From the IMG/VR virus record IMGVR_UViG_3300034073_002535, positions 1-33,729 of that record: DNA of 33,729 nucleotides, one strand, 5' to 3'. The DNA is from a virus. The position numbers and the translations under genes are program-made. Below the pieces are notes generated by a model, which had not been told where the DNA came from, searched no databases, and worked only from the letters and a program-made list of their open reading frames with translations. The stretch's first letter is position 1. Every line of letters starts with the position of its first letter. Shown piece by piece: positions 24,045-33,729 of this stretch.

Positions 24045-24415
24045 TATTGTAAATTTACAAGTTTATACTTAGTAGTTTGAATTAAAGTTTCTATCTCATC
24101 GTACTGATTCAACAGATAGCTATCTTGCGGAAGGGTGGGTTTTATTGATGTCATAAACATGCATAAGCCTTCAAAGTACATAGCATGCGCCCCATCTTCT
24201 CTTAAGGTGCCAGCCATTTTATATCCGTATAAGATACCGTATTTTCCTTGATATGATTCTACAAGCTCGTCTATTAAAGGTATAATACCTTCATAATACG
24301 CTTGTAAAGCTAAATGTGCTTGGCCAGAGCCAAGTCCTTTGGTCTGCCAATGATATATTTGTGCTTGGTTTCTACTTTGTAGTAATGTTCCTATTAGTAA
24401 AGGTAAATTATTCAT
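24044..24415 (-). CDS. DUF5856 ferritin-like phage protein
   Basis: A 123-residue, all-helical protein. LLQSRNQAQIYHWQTKGLGS, then ALQAYYEGIIPLIDELVESY and QGKYG matches the pattern I know as DUF5856, which looks like a four-helix ferritin/Dps-type bundle: an H-W-Q near the end of the first helix and an E/D-rich second helix. Whether it binds iron is unknown; in Dps the comparable residues form the ferroxidase site. It overlaps the large nucleotidyltransferase-LRR gene by TAATG and the downstream gene in the same way, so it is part of one operon. Confidence 0.8.
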   Translation of the reverse strand: MNNLPLLIGTLLQSRNQAQIYHWQTKGLGSGQAHLALQAYYEGIIPLIDELVESYQGKYGILYGYKMAGTLREDGAHAMYFEGLCMFMTSIKPTLPQDSYLLNQYDEIETLIQTTKYKLVNLQ

Positions 24416-27141
24416 TATTTCTTTTTTGATCTTTTTGCTTTAATTTTATCCCACTCTCTGGCTAAATAGGCGGGTGCCGCAATATCAACATAATATCCAG
24501 TTTTATTATATATTTTTAAGTCATCTGGCAATGACGTAATGTTTGTATCAGTTATATCAAGGCTTCCTCCTACTTTTAAATTTTTAGGTAGTTCGCTTAT
24601 TGAGGTGCCGGCAATTTCTAAATTTCCTCCTACTTTGAAGTTATCAGGTAATGAGGTTATTAGGCTATCTCTCAAATCTAAATCTCCTCCTACTTTTAAG
24701 TCAGCAGGTATTGAGGTTATTTTAGTGTCTCTTAAATATAGATTACCTCTTACTTGTAAATTATTAGGAAGTTTTTCTATTTTAGTATCTGAAATAACTA
24801 ACCTCCCAACTTTTAAGTTATCAGGTAGATACTTTATTTTAGTTCTACTTAAATCTAGCTCACCTCCTACTTTTAAATTATTAGGAAGTTTTTCTATTTC
24901 ACTATATGAAAGATCTAAGTAGTCTCGCACTTCTAAGTTATCAGGTAAATACTTTATTTTAGCGTCTTTTAAATCTAAATACCCTTTTACTTTTAAGTCA
25001 GCAGGTATTGAGGTTATTTTAGTCCCTCTCAAATCTAAATCTCCAATTTCTTTTAAGTTATCAGGTAGATTCAGTATTTGAGTATCTTTCAAACCTAAAA
25101 ATCCTTTTATTTTTAAATTAGCAGGTAATAAGGTTACTTGAGTGCCTCTTAAGTCTATTCCTCCAACTTTTAAATCATCAGGCAAGTCCTTTATTTTAGT
25201 ATTACCTAATTTTAAAGTTTTTACTACTTCTAAGCCATCGGGCAAGTATAATATTTCTTTACAACTTTCTAAATCTAGCCCACCTCCTACTTTTAAATTA
25301 TTAGGCAGATATTTTATTTTACTGTTATGTAGAACTAAGTCTCCTCCTACTTTTAAATTATTAGGTATAGAAGTTATTTTAGTGCTGTTTAAATATAAAT
25401 CCCCTCCAACTATTAATTTATTAGGTAGGGAAGTTATTTCACTATATGATAAATGTAAATCTTTTCCAACTGTTAAATTATTAGGTAAAGAAGTTATTTC
25501 ACTGCTCTGTAAGTATAAATTTCCAGATATTTTTAAATTATCAGGTATAGACTTTAATCTCTTGTTTCTTAAATCTAAATGTCCATGTATGTCTAAATCC
25601 TCAGGAGTAAGTTCATCCAGATAGTATATAAATTTAGCCTTTTGTCCGTAGCGTTGTATTCTATTATCTTTTAATTTTTTTCTGTCACTTGTAGGTAATG
25701 ACTTTTCAATATCTTTAGGAATATTCTCTCCTGTAGTTGTAACTGCATACTTAGATATTAATTGTTTAGGAGTGTTTCTTATTTGTTTCTCTGTTAAATC
25801 ATGGCTAAATCCTATGTACTTTTCCTTATCTGTATAATTTAATTTATCATACTGTTCATCAGATATTTCATTTTTAAATCTTTCATAATCTTTTCTTTCT
25901 TCTGCTGTTAATGGAATGTGTTTAAATAATTTTTGCAGTCCTTTTAATTTAGGTTGTATTTCTTCTATTTCTGACCAAGACATTTTTTTATCTCCAGGGT
26001 TATTTGATGTGGCTACATAGTAGTTCCCTTGAGCATTAATGTATATAACGATTGCATGATATATGTCTTCTTTTGGTTTGTCTTCATCAAAAACAAAATA
26101 AAAAACGGGCTCGTTAAGCCTCATACGATAGGAAAAGAACATATTAGAAGAATCTCTTCTAGATATACACCAACTATATCCTTTGCCGTACCTAACACAT
26201 TTTTCTTTAAGATCTCCTAATAAAATTAGTAATCCATTTTGATTATAAACTACATCTTCAGATCCTTTAAAATCTACTTCATCATCATCTGTTTTTTTGG
26301 AAACATCTGATGGAAAATTTGCATCTATTAGTTTTTCTAACTCATCAAATTTATATTGAAATATGTCTTTTTTTTGAAATACGTTAGATGATTGTTTATC
26401 ACTAAATTTATCTATATAATACTTTATCTGCTGATCTCCCAGTTCTGGTTTTTCTTTTTTAAACTTTTCTAATGCTTTTTTCTTGGCGGAATCAGATACA
26501 GCTTCTTGCAAGTTTATGGACTCAGCCATAGGCTCAAATACACTTTTCCAAAAACCATCGTTAAACATTTCTTGGTATTGTTCTGAGTAACTTTTAAGTA
26601 AAGGTGACTTATCTATTAAAGGTTCATCATGTACCTTTTCATTCATTATAGACAAATACTCATTTACTTGATCGTCAGTAAAATCATCTGGTAGTTGTTC
26701 TTTGGCTGCCTGTATATCATTATTCTGAGCTGCCTGATGTAATGCAGCGGATGACTTGTAGAACTGGGAGGGCAGTAGCTGCATCCCATAGTTAGAGAAC
26801 TTTGCAAATTTAGCCTGTAATTTTTTGTTTCTAGATGACTTTTCATCTAAAGCTATATAAGCAGGCTTATCGGGTTTAACTTCAAAAAGAGAATAGACCT
26901 CAGTTAAAGGCCCATTCTCTTTTGCTTTTATTATTGTTGCTTGAGGTGAAAAATGAGATTTTAACAACATTTCCCACATTCTTGCTTTTTGATCTTGACT
27001 TATAGGTCCATTAGTCTTACCTACTACTACATTAACATGGCTTACTTCAGGTCTGTTTAAAAGCCAATACAAAGCATTTAAATGCATTTTAGTAGGAGGT
27101 GCAAACTCTCCAGGATAATAACAAGGGTGCTGTGCTTCCAT
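24415..27141 (-). CDS. Nucleotidyltransferase-like protein fused to 18 leucine-rich repeats
   Basis: A 908-residue protein in three parts. Residues 1-170 resemble an NMNAT/cytidylyltransferase-type nucleotidyltransferase: YYPGEFAPPTKMHLNALYWL, with TKMH in place of the (T/H)-x-G-H motif, VVVGKTNGPI, and ISQDQKAR in place of ISSTxxR. Residues about 220-440 form a domain with YGKGYSWCISRRDSSNMFFS and VFYFVFDEDKPKEDIYHAIV that I cannot name. Residues about 521-879 are 18 repeats of 19-21 residues, consensus LDLRDTKITSLPDNLKVGGD, followed by a basic tail. The repeats resemble the short LPX-type leucine-rich repeats of bacterial effectors. The combination suggests binding of a host or virion protein with a possible nucleotidyl transfer activity; function unproven. 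Confidence 0.85.
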   Translation of the reverse strand: MEAQHPCYYPGEFAPPTKMHLNALYWLLNRPEVSHVNVVVGKTNGPISQDQKARMWEMLLKSHFSPQATIIKAKENGPLTEVYSLFEVKPDKPAYIALDEKSSRNKKLQAKFAKFSNYGMQLLPSQFYKSSAALHQAAQNNDIQAAKEQLPDDFTDDQVNEYLSIMNEKVHDEPLIDKSPLLKSYSEQYQEMFNDGFWKSVFEPMAESINLQEAVSDSAKKKALEKFKKEKPELGDQQIKYYIDKFSDKQSSNVFQKKDIFQYKFDELEKLIDANFPSDVSKKTDDDEVDFKGSEDVVYNQNGLLILLGDLKEKCVRYGKGYSWCISRRDSSNMFFSYRMRLNEPVFYFVFDEDKPKEDIYHAIVIYINAQGNYYVATSNNPGDKKMSWSEIEEIQPKLKGLQKLFKHIPLTAEERKDYERFKNEISDEQYDKLNYTDKEKYIGFSHDLTEKQIRNTPKQLISKYAVTTTGENIPKDIEKSLPTSDRKKLKDNRIQRYGQKAKFIYYLDELTPEDLDIHGHLDLRNKRLKSIPDNLKISGNLYLQSSEITSLPNNLTVGKDLHLSYSEITSLPNKLIVGGDLYLNSTKITSIPNNLKVGGDLVLHNSKIKYLPNNLKVGGGLDLESCKEILYLPDGLEVVKTLKLGNTKIKDLPDDLKVGGIDLRGTQVTLLPANLKIKGFLGLKDTQILNLPDNLKEIGDLDLRGTKITSIPADLKVKGYLDLKDAKIKYLPDNLEVRDYLDLSYSEIEKLPNNLKVGGELDLSRTKIKYLPDNLKVGRLVISDTKIEKLPNNLQVRGNLYLRDTKITSIPADLKVGGDLDLRDSLITSLPDNFKVGGNLEIAGTSISELPKNLKVGGSLDITDTNITSLPDDLKIYNKTGYYVDIAAPAYLAREWDKIKAKRSKKK
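24505..25581 (-). repeat. 18 leucine-rich repeats, period about 60 bases
   Basis: Tandem units of mostly 20 codons; each contains L-x-L-x(4)-I-x-x-[LI]-P-x-[ND]-L-K-V-G-G. Units 6 (21 residues), 7 (19) and 13 (19) deviate in length. Several neighbours are nearly identical in DNA, for example the repeats encoding LRDTKITSIPADLKV and LRGTKITSIPADLKV, indicating recent duplication. Confidence 0.88.
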
Positions 27142-28666: not shown

Positions 28667-28689
28667 AAAGATATAGACTATATATCTTT
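28667..28689. promoter_or_regulatory. 9-base hairpin before the primase start
   Basis: Perfect inverted repeat aaagatata / tatatcttt (28667-28675 and 28681-28689, loop of 5). On the minus strand it overlaps the SegE-like stop codon and ends five bases before the primase ATG. There is no U-run; it may affect primase translation or be chance in AT-rich DNA. Confidence 0.35.
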
Positions 28690-29112
28690 CTTCCAAAACT
28701 TACCTAAAATGTTTCCATTAAAACAGTTGTCAGATTCTAAGCATCCTTGTAATATTTGATGCCTCAGTTCCTGATATGTCATCTGTTTCTTGTGTGTACA
28801 AATATGTAAAACCTCTCTTTTAAAGGCTCCTTTACCTACTTCTTTTACCTCTGCTTTAAGGGACGCTTCAGATCCGTAATAGTCCTTCCAATCACTTTCA
28901 GCAATCACTTTCTTCTTTGTAGGCTTCTTTCCTTTTCCTGTATGTTCAGATAGTTCTTTTTTAGTTAAGGCTTTTGTCCTTTCTGAGTAAAGGTTTTTTC
29001 TACCTATATAGAACTTTCCTCCCTCTATTTTAGTTATTTTATAAATAAAACCGTAAGTATTTTCCGGAAATTCGGATATGTCTTTTATAACCTGTCCTTT
29101 GTAAAACCACAT
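28678..29112 (-). CDS. SegE-like GIY-YIG domain protein
   Basis: A 144-residue protein with a GIY-YIG core: GFIYKI (21-26), FYIG (34-37) followed by R38 and R45, then SDWKDYYGSEASLKAEVKEV and FKREVLHIC, and a helical C terminus (YQELRHQILQGCLESDNCFN ending GKFW). This corresponds to the GIY-YIG domain of putative SegE-type endonucleases of T4-like phages, which may be homing or junction-cutting enzymes. The second motif is YIGRK rather than YIGxS. It lies upstream of the primase. Either a selfish homing nuclease or a domesticated replication enzyme. Confidence 0.82.
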   Translation of the reverse strand: MWFYKGQVIKDISEFPENTYGFIYKITKIEGGKFYIGRKNLYSERTKALTKKELSEHTGKGKKPTKKKVIAESDWKDYYGSEASLKAEVKEVGKGAFKREVLHICTHKKQMTYQELRHQILQGCLESDNCFNGNILGKFWKKDI

Positions 29113-29113
29113 A

Positions 29114-29413
29114 TTATATATCCATTCTGATTAAAAAATTGGTATCTGTGTCTGGGGAAATTGGTATCGGTTGTGCAAATTTAGCTACCATCAATAAGTC
29201 ATTAGAATCATTGTAAAATCCTACCATGGTAGCATATGGAGTAAAATCAGACCCGCTGGCAAACCCAACCATAGTCTCCTTACTACATGCTGTTAATAAA
29301 GAAGGATTATAACTATATCCCATTTCGTGATCCTTAATAGTACACTTTATACTCCTCTCTATTATTAAGTGGTTATTAGAAAATTGTAGATTAAAGTCCT
29401 CGTATCCTGGCAT
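29114..29413 (-). CDS. Small conserved structural-type protein
   Basis: Ninety-nine residues with beta-rich pattern: DHEMGYSYNPSLLTACSK, SDFTPYATMVGFYNDSNDLL and AKFAQPIPISPDTDTNFLIR followed by MDI. This last block (a beta strand, Q-P-I-P-I-S, T-D-T, then a strand) is one I have seen in small proteins of phage tail regions. I cannot give it a name. It starts 10 bases after the Thr-Pro protein, and no ribosome-binding site is seen. Confidence 0.7.
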   Translation of the reverse strand: MPGYEDFNLQFSNNHLIIERSIKCTIKDHEMGYSYNPSLLTACSKETMVGFASGSDFTPYATMVGFYNDSNDLLMVAKFAQPIPISPDTDTNFLIRMDI

Positions 29414-29423
29414 ATATTATATT

Positions 29424-30182
29424 TTATGGACAAATTCCTGCATCTGAGCATGCATATGTCGTTTGTATAAAGTCCCCGTTAGTTACTGCAACACTATTTA
29501 CAGTTTTTATAGTTGCTTTTACACTTCCATTTGAGAATCCAGAAGTTAAGTTAGTCGTCCTGTAAACCAAAATAATGTCCTGATAACCTTCTGCTGGAAT
29601 AGTTATGTTAGTACTTGTTGCATCAGTTAATACACTTGGAACATTAGCAGCTAGTACTGTAGCAGATACCTGTGCTAAGAATGTAGACTCAGGAGGTGTA
29701 GTTTGAGGTAATATTGTAGTACTTAATCTACCGCTAATACAAGCAGAAGGTCCGCTTATACTTAGCATATAGTGCTGTGCGTACAATTCTACTCCTATTA
29801 CAGCTCCTACAGGACCTCTTAAACGAGTCCATACTTTACCCCCTTGTCCACATATATTTAAGTATCCTGTGTAGCTAGAATCAAATAGTACAGGCATTGT
29901 AGTTGGTGTTGAAGTTGGAGTAGGTGTGGATGTTACTGCAGGAGTTGGTGTTGGGGTCAATGTAGGGTTAACTAGATTATATGAAATACTGTCAGTGCAG
30001 ACTCCAGTAGATGTTACAGTTATTTGAGTAGAATTGACATCTGTATTTACATTAAACCCTGCTAATAACTGATCTCTGGTTACTCCTATTGCTATAGTAC
30101 CTAAAACATTATCTGATATTGTGAAAGGCCCTGCGGAAGTACCTATACTAGAAAGACTTACTGTGGCTACTCTTGTTGGCAT
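29424..30182 (-). CDS. Thr-Pro-linked adhesin-like protein, copy 2
   Basis: A 252-residue protein. The N-terminal domain (about 1-70: TSAGPFTISDNVLG and VTRDQLLAGFNVNTDVNSTQ) is clearly paralogous to that of the neighbouring gene (AAGPFDIYYNS and VDRASLLAGYSV). A Thr-Pro linker (TLTPTPTPAVTSTPTPTSTP, about 74-94) leads to a different C-terminal domain with three Cys near its start and end (NICGQGG, SACISG, ACSDAGICP). No signal peptide. This fits a modular virion surface protein; the Thr-Pro linker could be an O-glycosylation site. A GGAGGG sequence lies just before the ATG but is part of the previous gene. Confidence 0.75.
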   Translation of the reverse strand: MPTRVATVSLSSIGTSAGPFTISDNVLGTIAIGVTRDQLLAGFNVNTDVNSTQITVTSTGVCTDSISYNLVNPTLTPTPTPAVTSTPTPTSTPTTMPVLFDSSYTGYLNICGQGGKVWTRLRGPVGAVIGVELYAQHYMLSISGPSACISGRLSTTILPQTTPPESTFLAQVSATVLAANVPSVLTDATSTNITIPAEGYQDIILVYRTTNLTSGFSNGSVKATIKTVNSVAVTNGDFIQTTYACSDAGICP

Positions 30183-30183
30183 A

Positions 30184-30933
30184 CTATCCCTCCCATATTT
30201 GAATACTTACGAAATCGGTTGATATTATATTAACAGATAGATAAAAATCTATAACATCATTCATATTAAAGTTGTAAGATTGGTAAACAGTTCCATTAAC
30301 TTGTATCATAACGTATCCAGCATCCATTGCTGTATTCGTTGGAGATATTTTCCTAACCCTATACACAACTTCGTTTGATACTCCCTCTGTTATATAAGAA
30401 TCGTTTTTACCATAGGCTGGTATAGTGGAACTTGCCACGTTTATAGTATCTAAGCTAGCTCCTGCGGTGCTATTGAATATCTCAAACACATTTGAAGGGG
30501 ATATATCATTCAATACTACCTGGGCTCTATTCCTAACTGTAGCTCCAGTAGGTGTAGGCGTAGGCGTTGATGTAGCTGTTGGAGTTGCTGTAACAGTTGG
30601 AGTAGGTGTAGGAGTGGCATTTTCTGCTACGGTAACAGACATTCCAAACAATGTACAATTTAATATTGTCGGGAATGGGGTTGGTGTAGGAGTAGATGTA
30701 GGCACAGGAGTAGGAGTATACTGTATGACTTGGTAAACTTCAGAATTTCCGCAATACGGATCTGAATTTACTACTATAATTGTAGCAGGACTGCCAGCTA
30801 TGGTTACTGAATACCCTGCTAGTAAAGACGCTCTATCTACGCCACTATCTACCAGTGTTCCTTCAGAAATACTGTTATAGTAAATGTCAAACGGGCCTGC
30901 TGCGTCTCCTGATATAGTAACTATAAAATCCAT
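30184..30933 (-). CDS. Thr-Pro-linked adhesin-like protein, copy 1
   Basis: A 249-residue protein with the same plan as its neighbour: N-terminal domain (ISGDAAGPFDIYYNSISEGT, VDRASLLAGYSVTI), two Thr-Pro linkers (TPTPVPTSTPTPTPFP at about 72-88, TPTPTPTVTATPTATSTPTP at about 107-130) separated by a short insert, and a distinct beta-rich C-terminal domain ending VSIQIWEG. It has no signal peptide. Phage surface proteins of this style are rarely characterised. The stop is one base before the next gene. An ATATTTATAT motif lies three bases upstream of the ATG but inside the mutase gene end. Confidence 0.75.
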   Translation of the reverse strand: MDFIVTISGDAAGPFDIYYNSISEGTLVDSGVDRASLLAGYSVTIAGSPATIIVVNSDPYCGNSEVYQVIQYTPTPVPTSTPTPTPFPTILNCTLFGMSVTVAENATPTPTPTVTATPTATSTPTPTPTGATVRNRAQVVLNDISPSNVFEIFNSTAGASLDTINVASSTIPAYGKNDSYITEGVSNEVVYRVRKISPTNTAMDAGYVMIQVNGTVYQSYNFNMNDVIDFYLSVNIISTDFVSIQIWEG

Positions 30934-30934
30934 A

Positions 30935-32020
30935 TTATATAAATATAGTTTTGTTTACTTTTGACAAAGCGGATCCTATTACTTGATGCATATCGTAGTA
31001 TTTGTAATCAGCAAGTCTACCTCCAAAAATATATTTAGTTTCTATATTCATTAAACTTTTATACTTATTATACTTAATATTATTTTCAGTATCATTTATA
31101 GGATAATAAGGGTCTCCATTATTTTCAGGAAATTCCATAGATATTACAGTGTTACTTTGTTTGCCATACTCAAAATGCTTGTGTTCTGTTATCCTAGTAA
31201 ACGGGACTTCCTCGTCCGTATAATTCATCCCAGCAACTCCTTGATAATCACTCATTTGAAGATTGTATGTCTCAAATCTCAAACTTCTGTAATCTAGTTT
31301 TCCAAACTGATTATTATAAAATTCATCTATAGGTCCTGTATAGATTATTTTTTTAGCTATGGATTCAAAATAGTCCCTGTCTTTAAAATAATCATAGTTT
31401 AGTCTAACATTTATACCTTTTAACAGTTTTTGGAATATTTGAGTATAACCTCCTATGGGTATCCCAGAGTAAGTATCGTCATAGTAATTATCATCGAAAG
31501 ATAACCTTATTGGAAGCCTTTTTATTATACTAGTAGGTAAGTTTTTTGGATCCTTATTCCATTGTTTTTTTGTATATCCTTTTATAAAAATATTATAAAT
31601 CTCAGGACCTACTTGAGAAATAGCCCAATCTTCTAAATTCTTTGGGTCATTTATATTTACTTTAACATCCTCTAGCTTCCTAAAAGCTTCATCCGGAGTC
31701 GTCACTCCATAGATTTGATACAACGTCATTAAATTTATAGGAAAAGAATATATACTTCCTTTATAATTTACTTTCGGCCTATACTTAAAATCATTAAACT
31801 CTGCGTACTTTCTTACGTAGTCCCATATATTTTTATCAGAGGTATGAAATATGTGAGGACCGTATTTATGTACATTTATACCTTCCGTATTTTCAGTATA
31901 ACAGTTACCTCCTATATGAGATCTTTTGTCTATTACTAAACACTTAAACCCTCTATCGGTTAATTCTCTAGCACATACAGCTCCAAATAGACCTGATCCT
32001 ACAATTAAATAATCAAACAT
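30935..32020 (-). CDS. glf: UDP-galactopyranose mutase
   Basis: A 361-residue flavoenzyme close to the usual length (about 367). FAD-binding G8-S-G-L-F-G13, IDKRSHIGGNCYTE, HKYGPHIFHTSD (51-62, family motif), FIKGYTKKQW, TGPIDEFYNN, YRSLRFETYNL and the C-terminal ADYKYYDMHQVIGSAL all fit. It converts UDP-galactopyranose to UDP-galactofuranose, the donor for Galf glycans. It shares an operon with FkbM methyltransferase and glycosyltransferase genes, upstream of surface-protein genes. In a phage this suggests decoration of virion protein or modification of host glycan. Confidence 0.95.
   Translation of the reverse strand: MFDYLIVGSGLFGAVCARELTDRGFKCLVIDKRSHIGGNCYTENTEGINVHKYGPHIFHTSDKNIWDYVRKYAEFNDFKYRPKVNYKGSIYSFPINLMTLYQIYGVTTPDEAFRKLEDVKVNINDPKNLEDWAISQVGPEIYNIFIKGYTKKQWNKDPKNLPTSIIKRLPIRLSFDDNYYDDTYSGIPIGGYTQIFQKLLKGINVRLNYDYFKDRDYFESIAKKIIYTGPIDEFYNNQFGKLDYRSLRFETYNLQMSDYQGVAGMNYTDEEVPFTRITEHKHFEYGKQSNTVISMEFPENNGDPYYPINDTENNIKYNKYKSLMNIETKYIFGGRLADYKYYDMHQVIGSALSKVNKTIFI
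30937..30946 (-). promoter_or_regulatory. ATATTTATAT motif before the Thr-Pro pair
   Basis: Coding-strand ACTATATTTATATAATATGG: the motif overlaps the last codons and stop of the mutase gene and ends three bases before the ATG. Because it is partly coding, it is the weakest of the nine sites. Confidence 0.35.
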
Positions 32021-32629
32021 TTATTTCTTTATATATAGAGCATCTCCCCATTTATGAACTGTCATAAAAGTTTCAACTCTTGTTAAATTATATTTTGACA
32101 AATACTCATCTATTTCACTTACAAGTGCACAATCTTGATACAAATAATCTTCATTTACTTCGCAATACACGTAGTCAAATTTACTTAAATAATCCTTGAA
32201 TCCTTTAAAAACCTCTAATTCATATCCTTGTACATCTACATTTAAAAAGTTATACATGTCGATATTAATATTATTATCTAAAATTATATCTGACATTGTT
32301 TTTATTTGTATCTCTACTTCTTTTATAAAATTAACATGTGGATGTTCTTTTTCATGAGTTCCTAATTTTAAAAAAGAAGAAGATTCTCCATTATTTGCTA
32401 TTTTAAATGTCTCTATTTTATTCTCGTTACCTACCCCAGATATGATAACAATATCATTAGGACATCTTGATTTGAGACCCTCCTCATACTCTGGATTGGC
32501 CTCCACCCAAACAATAGGATTTATGCTATTACTTTCATACCAACCCTTTTCTTGTCCGTGGTGGGCTCCTATATGTATAGCTCCTTTTAGTGGGGTTATA
32601 AAGTGCTTCTTGAGATCTGTTATTAACAT
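32021..32629 (-). CDS. FkbM-family methyltransferase
   Basis: A 202-residue SAM-dependent methyltransferase. GAIHIGAHHGQEKGWYE (16-32) is motif I, VWVEANPEYEEGLKSR the acidic motif II, and NVDVQGYELEVFKGF (130-144) the conserved family block (D-V-Q-G-Y-E-L). FkbM proteins methylate hydroxyl groups, often on sugars of surface glycans. It lies between GT11 and the mutase with near-abutting junctions, so it probably caps or modifies the same glycan. Confidence 0.9.
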   Translation of the reverse strand: MLITDLKKHFITPLKGAIHIGAHHGQEKGWYESNSINPIVWVEANPEYEEGLKSRCPNDIVIISGVGNENKIETFKIANNGESSSFLKLGTHEKEHPHVNFIKEVEIQIKTMSDIILDNNINIDMYNFLNVDVQGYELEVFKGFKDYLSKFDYVYCEVNEDYLYQDCALVSEIDEYLSKYNLTRVETFMTVHKWGDALYIKK

Positions 32630-32632
32630 GTA

Positions 32633-33406
32633 TTATATTTTTAAAAAATTAGAACAATATAAATCATTCACATTCCAATCGGAATATCTTGATCCAAACC
32701 AAGTTATTGGAGCTATTATTTTTTTATTTTCATTGGTGCTTAGCCAAGATCCCCACCAACTAAAGGTACTATTTGCTATTATGTGATGGTCGCATTTTGA
32801 TATTAGACACATGTCATGAGCTAAGTCCTGTTTGTTGTATATTATGTTGGGGATTTTAAAATTATCTTTGCACCATACTATGTCATCTGAGGTACACACA
32901 AAAACTACATCTTCCCCATCTAACATTTTAATAGCCTTATTATAGTACTCTATAGTACATAAAGGATGGGCATCCGGATATAGCAAATAATCTCCTCTCC
33001 TCACATGCAAAGACACTTTTACTTTATTTTCATAGGGTTTTAAAAAATTATCTACCTTATTAGATATTTCTTTTTTGAAAGTATACTCTTTTTTAACTGC
33101 GCTAGGACAATGTTCAAAATACTTCTCAGTCTGGAAATACCCTCTAAAATTAGTACTTGTATCTATATTAAAGACTCCTTGATCAAAATGAAAGTGTTTT
33201 TCCTGATATAAGTTTAGTGTGTAAGTCTCTTTAATTTCACATTCTTTTATATCAAAAAAATCAAATAGATAACTTCTTTTTTTTACTTCTGGGTGTATTA
33301 CTATATCTGCCTCTATTTTATACTTTACTCCTAATAGTAATGCATATTGGAACATTTGATTTCCTAATTGTCCATATTTAGCAAGAAAATCATAAGTAAT
33401 TACCAT
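32633..33406 (-). CDS. GT11-type alpha-1,2-fucosyltransferase-like protein
   Basis: A 257-residue protein with GT11 signatures: YGQLGNQMFQYALLLGVKYK (11-30), SLHVRRGDYL (132-141, the GDP-fucose binding motif HxRRGDY), and ANSTFSWWGSWLS (211-223). GT11 enzymes transfer fucose from GDP-fucose to galactose in an alpha-1,2 link; acceptor specificity cannot be read here. GDP-fucose would have to come from the host or genes outside the window. The ATG overlaps the stop of the upstream glycosyltransferase, so they are co-translated. Confidence 0.88.
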   Translation of the reverse strand: MVITYDFLAKYGQLGNQMFQYALLLGVKYKIEADIVIHPEVKKRSYLFDFFDIKECEIKETYTLNLYQEKHFHFDQGVFNIDTSTNFRGYFQTEKYFEHCPSAVKKEYTFKKEISNKVDNFLKPYENKVKVSLHVRRGDYLLYPDAHPLCTIEYYNKAIKMLDGEDVVFVCTSDDIVWCKDNFKIPNIIYNKQDLAHDMCLISKCDHHIIANSTFSWWGSWLSTNENKKIIAPITWFGSRYSDWNVNDLYCSNFLKI

Positions 33407-33729
33407 TCTGCTGGTTTTTGAACTACATTATATATATACTTATCAGCTATAGATAAGGTATAGTCCACTTCTGAAGATTCTATATCAGAATAGTTTTTTC
33501 TCTGAGTTACTAAATTTTTAAGAGACATGTATATTTTATTTTCTTTCCTCTGACCTAAATTACCATAATACCCATCATTACAAGGATAACTTCTAAAAAA
33601 ATTTGAATTAGTCAATATTTTGTCATAAAATTTATTATTAATAGCATAAGCGTGATTAGTTGTTGTTCTTATAACTCTGCCTAAATTATCAGTTTCTTTA
33701 TAGTATTCTAATGGGTTGCACCCTAAATA
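33400..33729 (-). CDS. GT25-like glycosyltransferase, 5' end outside window
   Basis: The minus-strand frame is open from the right edge to TAA 33402-33400, at least 109 codons. A TTG at 33615 lies mid-frame and is not taken as the start. The visible part contains RTTTNHAYAINNKFYDKIL, SYPCNDGYYGNL, IYMSLKNLVTQRKNYSDIES and EVDYTLSI: the T-x-H-A-Y-x-I block and the late Q-x-x-x-S-D-I-E block are features of GT25-type glycosyltransferases (the family of LPS galactosyltransferases and of collagen galactosyltransferases). Only the C-terminal third is present, so the family call is tentative. It overlaps the fucosyltransferase-like gene by 7 bases. Confidence 0.68.
   Translation of the reverse strand, partial: YLGCNPLEYYKETDNLGRVIRTTTNHAYAINNKFYDKILTNSNFFRSYPCNDGYYGNLGQRKENKIYMSLKNLVTQRKNYSDIESSEVDYTLSIADKYIYNVVQKPAEW

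Follow-up and report, generated by a model that had tools for sequence, protein, structure and literature searches.

A glycosyltransferase cassette joined to Thr-Pro genes in a T4-like phage fragment suggests mucin-type O-glycosylation of tail-region proteins

Family GT60 of the CAZy classification includes TcOGNT of Trypanosoma cruzi, which forms N-acetylglucosamine (GlcNAc)-alpha-Thr on mucins that are later given galactose and galactofuranose (Galf) (PMC9472816, PMC6544316), and Skp1 Gnt1, which uses hydroxyproline as its acceptor (PMC6939170). A DxH motif that replaces DxD is common to GT60 and GT27 (PMC7185993). Glycosylation of phage-particle proteins is known in few cases. Phage-encoded glycosyltransferases (GTs) of mycobacteriophages reportedly modify virion proteins, and the glycans sit on the C-termini of capsid subunits and of tail-tube subunits (Freeman et al. 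2023, as cited in PMC12619734). The main text of PMC5852040 reports at least two virion glycoproteins from a proteomic analysis of the jumbo phage XacN1 and cites the chlorovirus PBCV-1, in which virus-encoded GTs glycosylate a virion protein. Here we analyze the whole of IMG/VR record IMGVR_UViG_3300034073_002535, a 33,729-bp stretch of phage DNA (the window) that ends in a GT cassette. In our reading, the window holds the 3' portion of a mucin-type O-glycosylation system that the phage encodes and directs at its own tail-region proteins, and we put the probability of this reading at about 0.72.

On the - strand, the genes run in the order GT25 (a fragment), GT11, FkbM, UDP-galactopyranose mutase (UGM), two Thr-Pro (TP) genes called TP1 and TP2, u99, a SegE-type GIY-YIG gene and a primase-like gene. 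The cassette and its TP genes are as follows:

33400 to 33729, - strand: GT25-type glycosyltransferase, the C-terminal 109 aa of a gene running off the window (whole gene in sister contig L154)
32633 to 33406, - strand: GT11 alpha-fucosyltransferase-type glycosyltransferase (PF01531, E=1.2e-27; phrog_2644, glycosyltransferase)
32021 to 32629, - strand: FkbM-type methyltransferase, candidate sugar O-methyltransferase (PF05050, E=1.8e-16)
30935 to 32020, - strand: UGM, which makes UDP-Galf (PF03275, E=6.2e-75)
30184 to 30933, - strand: TP1, with an N-terminal 'GPF' domain, Thr-Pro tracts (about 30547 to 30717) and a variable C-terminal part, from TP score and alignment
29424 to 30182, - strand: TP2, with an N-terminal domain, a disordered Thr-Pro tract (about 29898 to 29966) and a beta-sandwich C-terminal domain, from AlphaFold2

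From GT25 through to TP2, successive gaps are -7, 3, 0, 1 and 1 bp, and the cassette is fused with TP1 and TP2 into one operon. An earlier note on this DNA had described a compact operon of GT25-like, GT11, FkbM and UGM genes running into two Thr-Pro proteins, which the Pfam matches and the gaps of -7 to +3 bp bear out. Its GT25-like call also stands: the window fragment by itself has no Pfam match, and the complete gene (L154:115-822, 235 aa) matches PF01755 Glyco_transf_25 (E=7.8e-16). The GT11 protein combines the PF01531 profile with the HxRRxD motif, present as HVRRGDY; its sequence found no match among solved structures. The nearest solved structure to the UGM is E. coli UGM 1i8t (E 1.7e-127), aligned over its full length including the GRLADYKYYDMHQV block. 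In L154 the FkbM counterpart (L154:1593-2131; window 32021-32629) is spread over two overlapping frames, with residues 1-77 apart from the remainder. Either the frame shifted recently or the assembly is wrong at this point, and methylation may be dispensable.

The head of the cassette is seen in relatives, which were collected by UGM similarity. The order UGM-TP1-TP2-u99-GIY-YIG-primase is conserved in L002-L006, L065 and L068, and TP1 always follows UGM. Upstream of UGM these relatives carry, in order, proteins of 219-222 aa, 342-356 aa and 427-978 aa (the last starting 'MSAYKR...'), a 417-aa GT, a GT4-like GT, a GT25-type GT and a set of variable genes (GT11, FkbM, other methyltransferases and GTs without a family). 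The synteny table has other genes in the place of FkbM in relatives, and on these gene orders the middle GT and methyltransferase genes, which would determine the outer sugars, are swapped between close relatives. The 417-aa protein belongs to GT60 (L003:4832-6085; PF11397, E=4.9e-60, 204 bits versus a curated cut-off of 21), with about 75% identity among relatives of the window. It heads the cassette in L003, L005, L006, L065 and L068 and in the L074 cassette. The 'MSAYKR...' protein just upstream of it has large Thr-Pro regions, and in a 137-kb relative the cassette is flanked by 3/4 TP open reading frames (ORFs), one with 127 TP dipeptides. L154, 94% identical to the window, was the sole further contig to extend it beyond the GT25 end, adding 492 bp. 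A short open frame there, ahead of GT25, has C-terminal residues resembling those of the GT4-like gene. From this and the gene order of the relatives, we infer that a GT60 gene lies two genes upstream of GT25 in the window genome as well.

DxH is present as DSH or DAH in 45/45 aligned GT60 proteins (40 phage, 5 bacterial). Because the GT60 sequence gave no match to solved structures, an AlphaFold2 model of the L003 protein was used instead (pLDDT 93.6). The top 29 rows of the VIA-align comparison were all polypeptide GalNAc-transferases, with Z from 18.8 to 22.7 and the next row at 17.1. As modeled, the phage enzyme has a GT-A fold close to that of the GT27 polypeptide GalNAc-transferases. Family, motif and modeled fold together suggest a polypeptide alpha-GlcNAc-transferase that would act from UDP-GlcNAc onto Thr (or hydroxyproline). 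The likeness to the T. cruzi TcOGNT system thus takes in a GT60 head with DxH, the expectation of Thr-rich, Pro-containing acceptors and the availability of Galf; the phage system differs in its setting (bacterial cytoplasm without a Golgi), in its predicted (TP)n tail-region acceptors and in having GT11 and FkbM.

GT60 and Thr-Pro tracts occur together well beyond this group of relatives. We took 80 GT60 loci from viral contigs, with 131 UGM/GT11 loci without GT60 as the comparison set, and scored a TP tract wherever an ORF reached 6 or more TP dipeptides within 30 residues. Such an ORF was present in 62/80 loci with GT60 versus 0/131 without, and the counts were 60/77 and 0/67 for loci matched by GC content and length. 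After dereplication to one locus per 80% cluster, 21/29 GT60 loci had a TP tract; by GT60 clade, 30/42 and 32/38 did. A TP gene lay at most 2 genes from GT60 in 56/80 loci, versus a permutation mean of 21.5 and maximum of 33 (2000 permutations), so the association exceeds chance. For 7 of 17 GT60 loci lacking a local TP ORF, (TP)4 was found elsewhere in the record. UGM was present in 18/48 GT60 records, every one in the clade closer to the window, which makes GT60, not UGM, the constant element. It is GT60, rather than UGM or GT11, that tracks with TP proteins. In the literature covered, in which subscription papers are mostly not included, we found no report pairing GT60 with Thr-Pro phage proteins.

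Small Ser/Thr-Pro-rich proteins are encoded only a few genes away from GT60 in bacterial sequences too, so cellular bacteria may share the pairing. These neighbors are:

L273:8953-9741, L275:8657-9265, L289:7982-8449, L292:7962-8387 and L294:7418-7747: small Ser/Thr-Pro-rich proteins near bacterial GT60 genes

Members of both GT60 clades repeatedly carry, near GT60, a probable glycosyltransferase of about 260 aa ('MKLGLFYQSGYKI.ACYYALKQF') without a Pfam match. Between the TP genes of the second clade, no enzyme other than this protein and GT60 is encoded. Its locations are:

L065:8443-9222, L068:9203-9994, L244:11164-11988 and L237:11200-11997: probable glycosyltransferase of about 260 aa

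Among cultured phages, the GT60-positive XacN1, RAS14 and CM1 have 29, 19 and 19 (TP)3 tracts, with 0 or 1 for a reversed-pattern control. RAS14 and CM1 are near-twins in GT60 and TP content and were counted as one case. Neither GT60 nor (TP)3 tracts were found in RaK2 and SCTP-2, picked as comparators in the XacN1 paper, or in immuto and Mel-JY01, picked as relatives of the window phage. The TP tracts of XacN1 lie in large ORFs, several of them adjoining baseplate, sheath or structural genes (ORF325, 350, 372); its sheath, wedge, ligase, polymerase and ribonucleotide reductase have none. XacN1 therefore resembles the system proposed here in its GT60 (ORF334) with DSH, its many large TP-tract ORFs and its reported virion glycoproteins. 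It differs in having a single GT60 near a GT9 and a carbamoyl transferase, with no UGM cassette seen beside it and with TP proteins genome-wide. The carbamoyl transferase gene follows GT60 in XacN1 (L441, ORF333-334), and in RAS14 GT60 is followed by a similarly sized gene; carbamoylation of the XacN1 glycan is possible. PBCV-1 shares the use of virus-encoded GTs on a virion protein and differs in its eukaryotic host and capsid-protein target. It also uses a different GT set. The mycobacteriophage glycans differ from those proposed here, which are predicted on long TP stalks with a GT60 initiator.

The position of the cassette among tail genes is best seen by comparison with Flavobacterium phage immuto, for which two further window genes are needed:

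29114 to 29413, - strand: u99, a small domain with homology to the C-terminal end of immuto gene 166 (residues 249-357, E 1e-18)
28678 to 29112, - strand: GIY-YIG SegE-type protein (phrog_447)

The immuto genome has no GT between gene 166 and its GIY-YIG and primase genes; the genes in that slot are annotated as tail fiber and tail spike and match phage tail PHROGs. Gene 166 aligns with the N-terminal portion of the 'MSAYKR' protein (37.5% over 72 aa, with a second, short match) and, through its C-terminus, with u99 (32% over 109 columns). The cassette is thus located in the tail fiber/spike slot of immuto, and on its two sides lie homologues of the N-terminal and of the C-terminal part of gene 166. 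Mel-JY01 has a similar single gene, of which the u99 part alone falls within the E-value cut. The simplest reading, and a likely one from these alignments, is that an ancestral tail-region gene was split by the cassette together with the TP genes, leaving u99 as its detached C-terminal part. Since the C-terminal domain of gene 166 is also found in neighboring paralogues, u99 might alternatively have arisen as a separate copy. Both phrog_447 and the immuto counterpart of the GIY-YIG protein (28678-29112) carry the label 'NAD synthetase', which seems to be wrong.

TP1 and TP2 have an N-terminal domain in common (about 65 aa), followed by a TP tract of conserved composition and then by variable C-terminal parts. 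In the AlphaFold2 model of TP2, residues 73-94 have pLDDT below 50 and residues 99-241 have about 92. The beta-sandwich has weak structural matches (Z at most 7.1) and no Foldseek match in the PDB below 0.001. Fold matches at that level are too weak for us to claim a lectin fold for this domain. We predict that TP1 and TP2 are O-glycan acceptors and that they would be present in the virion.

Extrapolating from gene families and gene order, the system might work as follows. Late in infection, cytoplasmic GTs would modify the TP tracts, GT60 placing a first alpha-GlcNAc on their threonines. The GT4-like, GT25 and GT11 enzymes would extend this GlcNAc with hexose and fucose. The chain, capped with Galf from the UDP-Galf that UGM supplies, would be O-methylated by FkbM. 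A search for epimerase-family (nucleotide-sugar) genes, the only family searched, found none in the close relatives G001, G003, G004 and G005, so GDP-fucose is probably supplied by the host. Predicted acceptors in the window are TP1 and TP2; relatives would add the large Thr-Pro fiber just upstream of GT60. Once glycosylated, TP tracts could serve as stiff, protease-resistant stalks that hold the C-terminal beta domains off the particle, and swapping of the middle GT and methyltransferase genes would vary the outer sugars between close relatives.

Several observations weigh against this reading. The GT60 position is beyond the end of the window, which stops inside GT25, and L154 stops inside the preceding gene. 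L074 has the identical six-enzyme set in a different genomic setting away from tail genes, with no adjoining TP gene and with its TP tracts 70 kb off. XacN1 carries GT9 besides GT60, and the main text of PMC5852040 does not name its glycoproteins. The N-terminal domain of TP1 and TP2 carries T-rich or P-rich linkers in phages without GT60. TP tracts are also common without GT60, which was present in 10/79 records with a (TP)5 pattern versus 1/50 controls; this converse test is weak, and TP alone does not imply a glycosylation system. That TP and T-rich linkers are found in many GT60-less phages would fit a view of the tracts as plain flexible linkers of tail proteins, with a different protein as the target of the cassette. 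We consider this quite unlikely given the contrast between GT60 loci and other glycosylation loci and the recurrence of the GT60-TP pairing in unrelated cultured jumbo phages.

The L074 location would also suit a cassette that alters host surface polysaccharide (lipopolysaccharide (LPS) core, O-antigen or capsule), for example as a superinfection block, with adjacency to tail genes being incidental. GT25, GT11 and UGM are typical of LPS and capsule genes, and similar jumbo-phage GT clusters are read as outer-polysaccharide modifiers in the review PMC7824862, whose passages on GT clusters mention no GT60/TP link. However, the cassette and its L003 and L068 counterparts contain no GtrA, GtrB or membrane-bound Gtr of the kind used in serotype conversion, and no Wzx/Wzy or other lipid-linked or membrane protein. 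The 19-residue Kyte-Doolittle maximum is at most 1.85 in every cassette protein, so none has a strong transmembrane segment. This explanation loses ground from the lack of a lipid-carrier enzyme, flippase or membrane protein in the cassette; furthermore, the head enzyme comes from a polypeptide GT family and it is GT60, not UGM or GT11, that tracks with TP. We consider modification of the host surface unlikely.

A common role of GTs in T4-like phages is the hypermodification of DNA bases against nucleases, and virus-encoded GTs have been reported to build diverse glycans on DNA (cited in a passage of PMC12619734). For this cassette, such a function would leave the co-occurrence with TP proteins unexplained, and the cassette is located in the tail module. 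To our knowledge, the GT60, GT11, GT25 and UGM families do not include T4 DNA-glucosyltransferases, and we regard a DNA target as extremely improbable.

The earlier note had proposed that the phage may decorate its own fibers, and had pointed to a collagen-like fiber in the same genome and to the collagen-galactosylating enzymes of the GT25 family. That fiber is indeed present:

1 to 2877: collagen-like Gly-X-Y (GXY) fiber, 144 consecutive GXY triplets, PHROG tail fiber and collagen-like minor tail matches

The GT25 family does have collagen galactosyltransferases, and GT25 could in principle galactosylate this fiber as in animal or mimivirus collagen. However, the fiber is about 28 kb away and outside the operon, no link between the two was found, and GT60 would naturally act on TP tracts. 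Known collagen glycosylation enzymes need hydroxylysine sites, and a lysyl hydroxylase was not seen among the cassette genes. An extension role suits GT25 equally, and we prefer to see it as an LPS-type enzyme that lengthens the chain rather than as a collagen galactosyltransferase. The Gly-X-Y fiber is a very improbable target, and the proposed system can do without collagen galactosylation. The core idea of own-fiber decoration is well supported by the GT60 head in relatives, the GT60-TP co-occurrence and the tail-module position; action of GT25 on the collagen-like fiber is not supported. The note's further suggestion, that a decorated particle might mask its surface or bind host glycans, gains no support from these results and would be speculative.

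The window is a fragment of a T4-like myovirus, with terminase, portal, major head protein and PhoH matched in PHROGs. Its terminase is closest to that of immuto (49%), and the host of this tailed phage is probably a Flavobacterium-like bacterium. A near-identity DNA search of the window against cultured phages gave 0 matches. A PF00852 profile search of the window record gave no match, a negative that carries no information because control genomes likewise gave none. At 24415-27141 the window encodes a 908-aa protein with a nucleotidyltransferase-like N-terminal part and then a long leucine-rich repeat run ('LPDNLKVGGDLDL'); the ORF in its place in L154 (7001-7654) is 217 aa, without leucine-rich repeats. 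The motif TATTTATA is found about 10-30 nt upstream of several - strand starts (e.g., 7235, 15464, 17359, 22601 and 27165), with 13 occurrences on the window - strand versus 5.6 expected from base shuffling. From its placement it is possibly a phage promoter element.

We tentatively suggest, at somewhat below even odds, that large phages have a widespread and modular mucin-type system with a GT60 initiator and swappable outer GTs. It would build Galf- and fucose-containing glycans on (TP)n tail stalks in the bacterial cytoplasm without lipid carriers, with variable outer sugars serving surface variation or adhesion. If so, the parallel to T. cruzi mucins (GlcNAc-alpha-Thr, Galf cap) would be chemical as well as genetic. 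The GT60-(TP)n pairing, which recurs across two uncultured clades and in three cultured jumbo phages, would make it possible to predict from sequence which phages build glycoprotein tails and which residues carry the sugar. Mucin-type O-glycosylation would enter phage biology in a form that is testable at once on the public XacN1 proteome (PXD008065), and Thr-Pro repeats would gain a meaning in at least some tail proteins of large phages.

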